Origin: Saprospiraceae bacterium
GTDB lineage: Bacteria; Bacteroidota; Bacteroidia; Chitinophagales; Saprospiraceae
Length of the DNA stretch: 33,458 nt
Assembly: GCA_013002995.1 (NCBI GenBank)
Contig: JABDLO010000215.1
Span: forward strand, 1-33,458
Direction: 5' to 3'
The notes under the pieces were generated by a model that was not told the DNA's origin, did no database searches, and saw nothing but the letters and a program-made list of their open reading frames with translations. A program made the position numbers and the translations under genes. Shown piece after piece: positions 16,833 through 18,617 of this stretch (position 1 is its first letter; each line of letters begins with the position of its first letter).

Positions 16833-17453
16833 ATGGAGTTACTTTACGTAGCGGATCTGGTGGGAACTTTTGTATTTGCGATCAGCGGAGTAATGGTTGC
16901 ATCAGCTAAAAAGTTTGATGTATTTGGCGCTTTTGTCATTGCATTTGTAACTGCGATTGGAGGAGGAACTTTAAGAGATATATTGATCGGCAGTTTACCG
17001 GTAGGATGGATTCAGGATGTAACCTACATCTTTGTTATCATGGTAGCCTGCCTATGTAGTGTTTTATTCAGCAGGTATATTATCAATCTGAGTAAGACGT
17101 TATTTCTGTTTGATACCATTGGTATTGCAGTCTTTACGATTCTGGGATTGCAGAAAGCCCTGGATGTGGGGACACCAGCCGTAGTAGCAGTAATGATGGG
17201 GACCATATCTGCAGTATTTGGTGGTGTGGTCAGAGATGTATTATGCAATGAGGAACCATTGATCTTTCGTAAAGAATTATATGCAACTCCTTGTATTTTT
17301 GGTGGTGTACTATATTTGATATTGGATCGATCAGGCCTCATTCAACCTGCAGTGATAGGAATTACCATTGCTGGAATAATAATCGTAAGATTGTTGGCAG
17401 TTAAGCGCCACTGGTCGCTTCCATTGATTAATCTTGAAAAGATCAGACATTGA
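16833..17453 (+). CDS. TRIC/UPF0126 (YadS-like) cation channel family membrane protein
   Basis: A 206-residue inner-membrane protein with about seven hydrophobic helices, formed from two inverted UPF0126 repeats. Prokaryotic homologs are trimeric channels related to animal TRIC proteins that conduct K+ or Na+. Seen: repeat one with DLVGTFVFAISGVMVASAKKFDVFG and the signature GGGTLRD (43-49), and repeat two with DTIGIAVFTILGLQKAL and GGVVRDVL (130-137). The length matches the family. It starts 2 bases after the ATP-grasp gene, so the two are almost certainly cotranscribed. Some homologs have been proposed to move glycine, which is worth noting given gcvP nearby, but nothing in the sequence decides the cargo. 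Its stop codon overlaps the broken VOC reading frame. Confidence 0.93.
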   Translation: MELLYVADLVGTFVFAISGVMVASAKKFDVFGAFVIAFVTAIGGGTLRDILIGSLPVGWIQDVTYIFVIMVACLCSVLFSRYIINLSKTLFLFDTIGIAVFTILGLQKALDVGTPAVVAVMMGTISAVFGGVVRDVLCNEEPLIFRKELYATPCIFGGVLYLILDRSGLIQPAVIGITIAGIIIVRLLAVKRHWSLPLINLEKIRH

Positions 17454-17628
17454 AAATCCTCAATTTACATCCTCAACTGTATACTGAAGATCTCAAAGCT
17501 ACTCTTCATTTTTATACAACATATTTGGACTTCCAAGTACAACCATATGTTGAAAAATGGGATTGGATGTCTCTAAAGTACAATGAGGTTGAATAGATGT
17601 TTACGATTCCTGATCAATATTACACTTT
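17450..17628 (+). pseudogene. VOC (glyoxalase-fold) gene remnant: in-frame stop and lost 3' half
   Basis: Reading from TTG 17450 gives NLHPQLYTEDLKATLHFYTTYLDFQV and then EKWDWMSLKYNEVE, the first beta-alpha-beta unit of a VOC domain. TAG at 17594-17596 interrupts it, and the same frame continues MFTIPDQY. Intact relatives typically read a Leu (VELMF-like) where the stop falls, so a single TTG-to-TAG change would explain it. The frame then enters the palindromic repeats at 17629, and no second half of the domain is recognisable beyond. It is a different VOC subfamily from the gene at 7457. The remnant overlaps the TRIC stop by 4 bases, so it was probably the third gene of that operon. Confidence 0.75.
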
Positions 17629-17967
17629 GTTGCAAATAAATTTGCAACTCCGATCATAGGACTTTCAAATTTATTTGAAAGAAAGGGGTCCAAGGTAAAT
17701 CCCCCACTTGTAATGTTATTCATTTACCATCACAGATGCATTATTATTCGCTACGTTTACTTTGCACTGGTATATTGCTATAGTGTTGACTTATGTTGCA
17801 AATAAATTTGCAACTCCTGCTCGACATAGGACTTTCAAATTTATTTGAAAGAATGACGTCAATTATAAATTCTCCACTTATCAGGCCTTTAAATATTTCA
17901 TGTGAAATACTTTAAAGTCTTTCAGGTTTACTACGGGTTCATGCTTCGTTGCAAATAAATTTGCAAC
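17629..17967. repeat. Array of palindromic repeats (three P1 and two P2 copies)
   Basis: P1, GTTGCAAATAAATTTGCAAC, occurs identically at 17629-17648, 17795-17814 and 17948-17967, each time followed by TCC. P2, CTTTCAAATTTATTTGAAAG, occurs identically at 17662-17681 and 17832-17851, each time preceded by ATAGGA. Both are 20-bp palindromes with 9-bp arms, and they share a 12-bp core: P1 has CAAATAAATTTG and P2 its reverse complement. The order is P1-P2-spacer-P1-P2-spacer-P1 with periods of 166 and 153 bp. The spacers are diverged but share short blocks such as TAAATnnnCCACTT. No reading frame or transposase lies inside. The array separates the VOC remnant from the convergent LON-domain gene. 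It looks like a REP/MITE-type family. Confidence 0.85.
17887..17917. repeat. Third, different palindrome inside the second repeat spacer
   Basis: CTTTAAATATTTCA (17887-17900) and TGAAATA-C-TTTAAAG (17903-17917) form 14 base pairs around a TG centre with one unpaired C. It has the same CTTT...AAAG ends as P2 but a different interior, so it may be a diverged relative of P2. Confidence 0.55.
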
Positions 17968-17978
17968 TCCATTGGAAA

Positions 17979-18617
17979 TTAAAATTCAGGGGGAATGACG
18001 TTTTTGAAATGTCCATTTAATTTAGCCTTAGATTTCATGGATTCCATTTCTTTTACAATAGGAAGTATATGATTTAAATGATCTATCATATACATCTGGC
18101 GTTCTACTTCACGGCCTAATTTTAGAAATTCAATTTCTTGTTGAAAACTGAAACCCACTTTATGTGCAACTTCATAAGTTCTGAATAGGGCAGGGCTTTT
18201 CAGAGGAACATTTTCAACATTCATGATAAGGTATAAATCTTTAAGGAGGGCTAGTAATTCTTTGTTCTTCTTAAAATTTGAATCCTGGTCCCAGTGCATC
18301 CTTTCTATTTCAGCACCAGGATAGAGCTTACCTATAATGGTCTTATAAAAGGCAATTATTTTTACAAGGCCTACTCCTTCTGTTCTTACATCCATTTTAC
18401 CATTATCGTATTTTTTTTCAATCTTGGAAAGTTTCATTTCTGCACCCACAGGGAGGTTTTTGCCATTGTAATGTGGACAGATGATAAATGTTTTACCTTC
18501 TGTATCACATTCATGAATGAGTTGCCGATACCTGGGTTCGAAAATGTGCAGGTTTAATTTCTCGCCGGGAAATGCGACAAGGTTTAATGGAAATAATGGT
18601 GATATAATCTCTGCCAT
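17979..18617 (-). CDS. LON peptidase substrate-binding (N-terminal) domain protein
   Basis: A 212-residue stand-alone protein carrying the LON_substr_bdg domain, without AAA or protease parts. Seen: the family opening SPLFPLNLVAFPGEKLNLHIFEPRYRQLI, then IICPHYNGKNLPVGAEMKLSKIEKKYDNGKMDVRTEGVGLVKI, and a helical C-terminal third. Bacterial stand-alone members are common and their biochemical role is not well established; substrate or protein binding is inferred from the Lon context. It is transcribed leftward, 62 bases after pepT, so it may be the last gene of a ggt-pepT unit. A P1 repeat ends 11 bases beyond its stop codon, which leaves no obvious separate terminator. Confidence 0.88.
   Translation of the reverse strand: MAEIISPLFPLNLVAFPGEKLNLHIFEPRYRQLIHECDTEGKTFIICPHYNGKNLPVGAEMKLSKIEKKYDNGKMDVRTEGVGLVKIIAFYKTIIGKLYPGAEIERMHWDQDSNFKKNKELLALLKDLYLIMNVENVPLKSPALFRTYEVAHKVGFSFQQEIEFLKLGREVERQMYMIDHLNHILPIVKEMESMKSKAKLNGHFKNVIPPEF

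Follow-up and report, generated by a model that had tools for sequence, protein, structure and literature searches.

Most REPs (repetitive extragenic palindromic sequences) have been sorted by their tag into two super-families, GTAG and CGTC, and those of the GTAG super-family go with RAYTs, as described in PMC3733652; RAYTs and REPs are also tabulated in PMC2817692. The E. coli RAYT recognises and cuts single-stranded REP, and TnpAREP is described as tolerating no change in the tag (PMC8266576). The Y and Z REPs of E. coli and the BIMEs that occur with TnpAREP provide the example of two subtypes arranged in inverted pairs and arrays (PMC6006769). A related system is the Group 3 REPtron Mb of Marinomonas sp. 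MWYL1, which combines a Y1 RAYT with a small perfect hairpin that has a TTTA loop and a tag on its 5' side (PMC8266576). SELEX and mutants of REPMb established that loop bases T12, T13 and A15 are needed while position 14 is free. The tag selects the dinucleotide that is cut: the first cut base pairs with tag base 4 and the second with base 3 or 2, and altered tags shifted the cut as this guide model predicts (PMC8266576). Hairpins without a GT[AG]G tag have been described for RAYT-like genes of TnpAY1 subclasses 2.6 and 3, with copies elsewhere in the genome, subclass 2.6 being found mostly in Bacteroidetes (PMC6006769). We found no literature on REPs of Saprospiraceae, and no paper that contains both "Saprospiraceae" and "repetitive extragenic palindromic", in a search that covered few of the subscription journals.

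The array described here lies in a stretch of 33,458 nucleotides from a Saprospiraceae bacterium (the window; contig JABDLO010000215.1 of assembly GCA_013002995.1). A preliminary description had reported five 20-bp palindromes of two types, P1 and P2, identical within type. The window sequence bears out the five positions and the identity within each type, but the units are not full palindromes: each consists of an 8-bp stem closed by a loop of 4 nt, which reads TAAA or TTTA depending on the strand, with the trinucleotide GGA on one side. Because of this one-sided tag the array extends to 17970. P1 copy 1 occupies 17629-17651 on the minus strand (hairpin 17629-17648, tag 17649-17651, GGA on that strand) and is separated by a short spacer of 7 nt between the two facing tags (17652-17658) from P2 copy 1 at 17659-17681 on the plus strand (tag 17659-17661, hairpin 17662-17681). 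A long spacer of 113 nt (17682-17794), which resembles the next long spacer only over its first part, leads to P1 copy 2 (17795-17817, minus strand; hairpin 17795-17814, tag 17815-17817), a short spacer of 11 nt (17818-17828) and P2 copy 2 (17829-17851, plus strand; tag 17829-17831, hairpin 17832-17851). After a further long spacer of 96 nt (17852-17947), P1 copy 3 (17948-17970, minus strand; hairpin 17948-17967, tag 17968-17970) ends the array, 8 nt short of the 3' end of the next gene.

The array 17629-17970 is placed between two convergent genes whose 3' ends both face it, a Gly_transporter gene (PF03458; 16833-17453, plus strand) and a gene with a LON_substr_bdg domain (PF02190; 17979-18617, minus strand). 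P1-to-P1 spacing is 166 and 153, in agreement with the composite period of 153-166 bp reported earlier, and P2-to-P2 spacing is 170. The core shared by P1 and P2, CAAATAAATTTG, occurs without mismatch five times in the window, each time within the array; allowing one mismatch gives six matches, whereas 100 shuffles averaged 1.0 and never exceeded 4. In the searched literature this string occurred in one wheat paper only. An Rfam search of the window gave no match at the gathering score. Between the Gly_transporter gene and the array, 17450-17596 holds a 48-codon open frame that, on inspection by eye, resembles the beginning of a glyoxalase-type gene and is perhaps a truncated remnant.

Read in the orientation that places TTTA in the loop, P1 (minus strand) is GGA-GTTGCAAA-TTTA-TTTGCAAC and P2 (plus strand) is GGA-CTTTCAAA-TTTA-TTTGAAAG. 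What separates the two types is the outer arm; GGA tag, loop and the inner CAAA/TTTG pairs are common to both. The orientation of the tag is fixed, with GGA preceding the hairpin in 25 of the 26 copies listed from this genome and GTA in the remaining one. Short end-tagged palindromes that form opposite-orientation dimers, mostly 3' of genes or between convergent genes, are equally typical of the GTAG and CGTC REPs of PMC3733652, from which P1 and P2 differ by their tag: GGA is neither GT[AG]G nor CGTC, and the string GGAC does not occur in that paper. E. coli REPs differ further, with GTAG and a longer, bulged stem (PMC8266576). The Marinomonas REP is closer in its small perfect hairpin, but carries GTAG 2 nt from a 5-bp stem, whereas in P1 and P2 NGGA directly precedes an 8-nt arm (PMC8266576).

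The preliminary description had also suggested that P1 and P2 arms could pair with each other. Cross-pairing was not favoured as the main fold, since the predicted minimum-energy folds of four DNA and four RNA composites all consist of two separate hairpins. For the two composites in the window, folded as single-stranded DNA (z -5.9 and -5.8), the predicted structure contains, besides the two hairpins, a short stem in which TCC pairs with GGA. The predicted RNA folds are similar to the DNA folds and stable, with z about -3.6 to -4.8.

The genome from which the window derives (5.35 Mb in 548 contigs) was searched with the pattern GGASTTKCAAATTTATTTGMAAS at up to three mismatches. This gave 31 copies, 22 of them exact, on 10 contigs, with none for the reversed control, which rules out a purely local duplication. 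A core match on C329 that had neither tag nor arms was excluded. The copies form 13 clusters, of which 10 overlap no ORF of at least 80 aa; the clusters on C136, C522 and C415 overlap a called ORF start or sit inside an ambiguous ORF. Orientation alternates in 17 of 18 listed neighbour pairs, and nine close facing pairs have their tags 6-11 nt apart. Thus many of these short palindromes are dispersed and extragenic, as REPs are, and they alternate in pairs and arrays, as in BIMEs. A count of 31 is low for a REP family and weighs against the explanation that we prefer.

Most of the copies adjoin gene 3' ends, a location that the preliminary description had proposed to test. The cluster on C415 was left out of this scoring because its ORFs are ambiguous; with genes taken as simple longest frames, a 3' end lies within 10 nt of 8 of the 12 scored clusters, whereas placing the clusters at random in their own gaps gave a mean of 2.9 (P 0.0001). 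Counted by edges, 9 of 17 3' edges lie within 10 nt of a cluster. This location, the 5 of 13 clusters that stand between convergent genes and the stability of the RNA folds would all be expected if the hairpins served chiefly at RNA 3' ends, as terminators or as stabilisers of mRNA, and were maintained through selection on gene expression and not as mobile repeats. We regard this as very improbable: 17400-18050 contains neither a T run nor a terminator-like site, and such a role leaves unexplained both the hairpins on either side of a RAYT gene and the lineage-specific arms described below. Action at RNA 3' ends could be a secondary role of the hairpins.

The extent of the dispersed unit was examined by all-versus-all blastn of the clusters. 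Among the best 80 lines, matches between loci were at most 72 bp and centred on the composite unit, and longer similarity lay within a local array. The exception in these lines was a match between C308 and C108, about 200 bp at 68% identity, that includes a long spacer. Our results fit dispersal of a short unit followed by local tandem growth. A MITE, that is a non-autonomous DNA transposon with P1 and P2 as its terminal inverted repeats, would account for the C308-C108 match, from which it follows that a longer unit may have moved once. As a general explanation it is extremely improbable, given the short extent of the other matches among the best 80, the single hairpins that stand alone at C29 and C415, and the Y1 type of the linked enzyme. 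As a separate observation, on C122 (5000-7887, at about 1534-1716 of that piece) a 183-bp stretch with GGATGTCTCA and TGAGACAGCC near its ends lies between a P1 and a P2, and looks like a MITE inserted between two REPs.

Copies in other genomes were sought in two ways. P1 at up to one mismatch was absent from 59 relatives (a species of the same genus, 74% complete, and 58 others), and the spread of the family is therefore known from four MAGs only, that of the window included. A scan of a genome collection returned 11 stretches from four other genomes, namely the Saprospiraceae MAGs JALVEG (5), CAMZKG (4) and JALSPW (1) and one Melioribacteraceae genome (1), whose single match falls inside an open frame and was treated as chance. 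JALVEG, CAMZKG and JALSPW each have two arm types (CTTTC/ATGTC, CTTGC/NYGTG and GTTTC/ATCGC, respectively, those of JALSPW resting on three hairpins only), and in all three the arms still pair and the AAA-TTYA-TTT core is unchanged. A search of IMG/VR gave no match. The loose pattern GGAN5AAATTTATTT, found 26 times in the window's genome against 2 for its reverse, is not diagnostic alone because it has matches in 105 of 150 genomes. One such match beside a RAYT, in genome G079, was rejected as it is not a hairpin. In that genome (C76, 19000-23000, at about 1140-1480 of that piece) a Y1 transposase-like gene is immediately preceded by tandem repeats of about 21 bp of the GTTGCTTGTGTGTAAAATAAA type, and in another (G021, C7, 1-1200, at 123-260) 48-bp tandem repeats with GGAACCCCAAATTTATTTGGGTCGAAGAC have the same loop core in a different setting. 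In genome G001 the best match to the window locus was the LON-domain gene, in another setting.

A linked transposase gene was found in JALVEG. Contig JALVEG010000113 encodes a 225-aa ORF (locus L123, 3751-4428) with core hairpins on both sides, exact P2 copies among them on each side. The ORF matches Pfam Y1_Tnp at 29.2 bits (cut-off 23), as do 28 of 29 members of its group, and NCBIfam REP_Tyr_transpos with an E value of 2.8e-17 and 63 bits, which is below the 80-bit cut-off. A profile of the 29 members matches E. coli TnpAREP (4er8; E 3.2e-6), with the invariant W of the group aligned to the W-Q of 4er8, read as W94-Q95 from the description in PMC6006769. The ORF is thus a Y1 HUH transposase related to TnpAREP, that is a RAYT, flanked by the same hairpins. 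Of 248 genomes of the family, 65 contain relatives at E values up to 1e-15. Core hairpins of 7 bp or more are present at 10 of 30 L123-like RAYT loci but at none of the 29 loci that represent another RAYT group; among 1500 Markov shuffles they appeared in 1. In CAMZKG, the nearest RAYT (57% identical) has GGC-tagged core hairpins with different arms on its flanks, which lack the CTTGC type that is dispersed in that genome; this is a finding that also counts against our preferred explanation.

These comparisons bear on whether P1 and P2 might be operators of a regulator or nucleoid protein that binds double-stranded DNA, the dyad being a dimer site and the alternation incidental. The near-perfect dyads, exact in 22 of 31 copies, speak for this reading. 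Against this, the orientation of the loop relative to GGA is constant in P1, P2 and the other genomes, the arms vary between genomes while pairing stays, the JALVEG copies flank a transposase gene, and none of seven 5' gene edges (two of them ORF calls overlapping the cluster) lies within 10 nt of a cluster. We consider an operator function highly improbable. Our preferred explanation, with which these observations are in keeping, is that P1 and P2 very probably are two subtypes of one REP family, that the block in the window is a BIME in the form of an alternating tandem array, and that it was probably seeded by a RAYT whose gene is lost or unassembled. The likeness to REP/BIME families that had been noted from the window alone is upheld by the dispersed copies, the gene-3' location and the JALVEG RAYT.

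A RAYT with such hairpins on its flanks, which the preliminary description proposed to look for, was found in JALVEG (with P2) but not in the window's own genome. The Y1/RAYT genes found in that genome are located on C93, C106, C137, C319 and C545, none of which bears P1/P2 hairpins. A profile search of the window's assembly returned one full-length member (C93:6958-7608) and two weaker matches, and no RAYT of the right group, a further point against the preferred explanation. In the tree the C93 RAYT is placed elsewhere, and the hairpins on its flanks, GGA-tagged as well, are of the GGGGCCTTCAGGCCCC type; since both its position and its hairpins are different, there is no assembled partner for P1 and P2. 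The GGGGCCTTCAGGCCCC hairpins constitute a second GGA-tagged REP type, whose stem is very different, and in the piece around the C93 gene (C93:5461-7728) they form facing composites at about 1180-1245, 1415-1480 and 2200-2265. The remaining genes were likewise rejected as the source of P1 and P2: their surroundings showed either different hairpins or repeats, or nothing of the P1/P2 type. The C106 gene is a remnant. The C319 RAYT (C319:3700-6100, at about 773-1359) is split over two frames and belongs to another group, with TCGAAGC/TTGAAGC hairpins on both sides. C137 holds two Y1 genes, of which the one at 1-561 is cut by the contig start with its upstream side unseen; a CGTC-like palindrome beside the IS200-type gene on this contig has one copy only at up to three mismatches. 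The RAYT-like gene on C545 (2000-4800), 29% identical to that on C137, lies among repeated AAGGTCTCCTGACCTC-type units. The missing partner would be either lost or hidden in an assembly gap, and the copies in this genome are now probably passive.

To place the GGA tag among those of other RAYT loci, the most repeated hairpin outside the gene was taken at 75 loci, L123 included although it had itself been chosen through the repeat. Of these loci 54 had such a hairpin, with a 4-nt loop in 40. The loop is TTNA in one orientation in 37 of the 40 families (no chance level was computed), which equals the Marinomonas loop rule of T, T, any base, A (PMC8266576). With orientation set by the loop, 15 of the 37 have a GT[AG] that begins 11 or 12 nt ahead of the loop and 13 have a GG that begins 11 nt ahead of it, and neither applies in 9. 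A protein tree was built by quick search from 74 of the 75 RAYTs. The AAA-TTYA-TTT core is found in 13 of the 20 loci of one tree group versus 1 of 54 elsewhere; support (SH-aLRT) is moderate, 89 for this group and 94 for a nested group of 13. All 9 scorable loci of the nested group have GG tags, and the other seven loci of the larger group comprise four GT (L187, L189, L190, L220), one ambiguous, one other and one without repeats. Judged from sequence, P1 and P2 match the type of the 13-member group in core, loop and GG position, with NGGA in place of the usual GTAG. The tree neighbours of the L123 group keep GTAN tags, in contrast to the atypical REPs of subclasses 2.6 and 3.

A relation between tag and protein was also examined. 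The two-way rule that Q after the invariant W goes with GTA and another residue with GG, fixed beforehand, failed on held-out loci: unambiguous calls among 39 such loci gave 8 GT and no GG with Q, and 2 GG and 5 GT without it. The one-way form, in which GG occurs only without Q, held in 12 of 12 cases, but in 11 of 13 when orientation was set by the loop (exceptions L214 and L225), and is not claimed either. The RAYTs of L214 and L215 are of another family of the class and have other hairpins.

The following course of events would fit these data. A RAYT of the nested 13-member group may have bound the hairpin as single-stranded DNA, with the NGGA tag serving as a guide and cutting and joining taking place at that point. 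Short units would thereby have been seeded behind genes, and some arrays would then have been lengthened by local duplication. If the Marinomonas guide rule is applied to NGGA by analogy, the predicted cut is at TC instead of CT, and the TC would be supplied by the complementary tag (TCC) of the facing partner REP, 6-11 nt away.

P1 and P2 are thus a dispersed, low-copy REP/BIME family, fairly ordinary for the window itself, and are confirmed as a tag variant within the REP/BIME kind. We tentatively suggest, as a possibility short of an even chance, that the guide may have switched from GTAN to NGGN in one RAYT clade at nearly the same position. In that case the tag would act as a specificity code that is able to evolve, and P1 and P2 would be an orphan population of the switched type. 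REPs have been sorted by GTAG or CGTC tag, and RAYT neighbours with GTAN and NGGN tags, nearly the same spacing and the same loop are natural pairs for experiments on how the tag is read and the cut chosen. Our findings also suggest that some REP families escape searches that rely on GTAG or CGTC.
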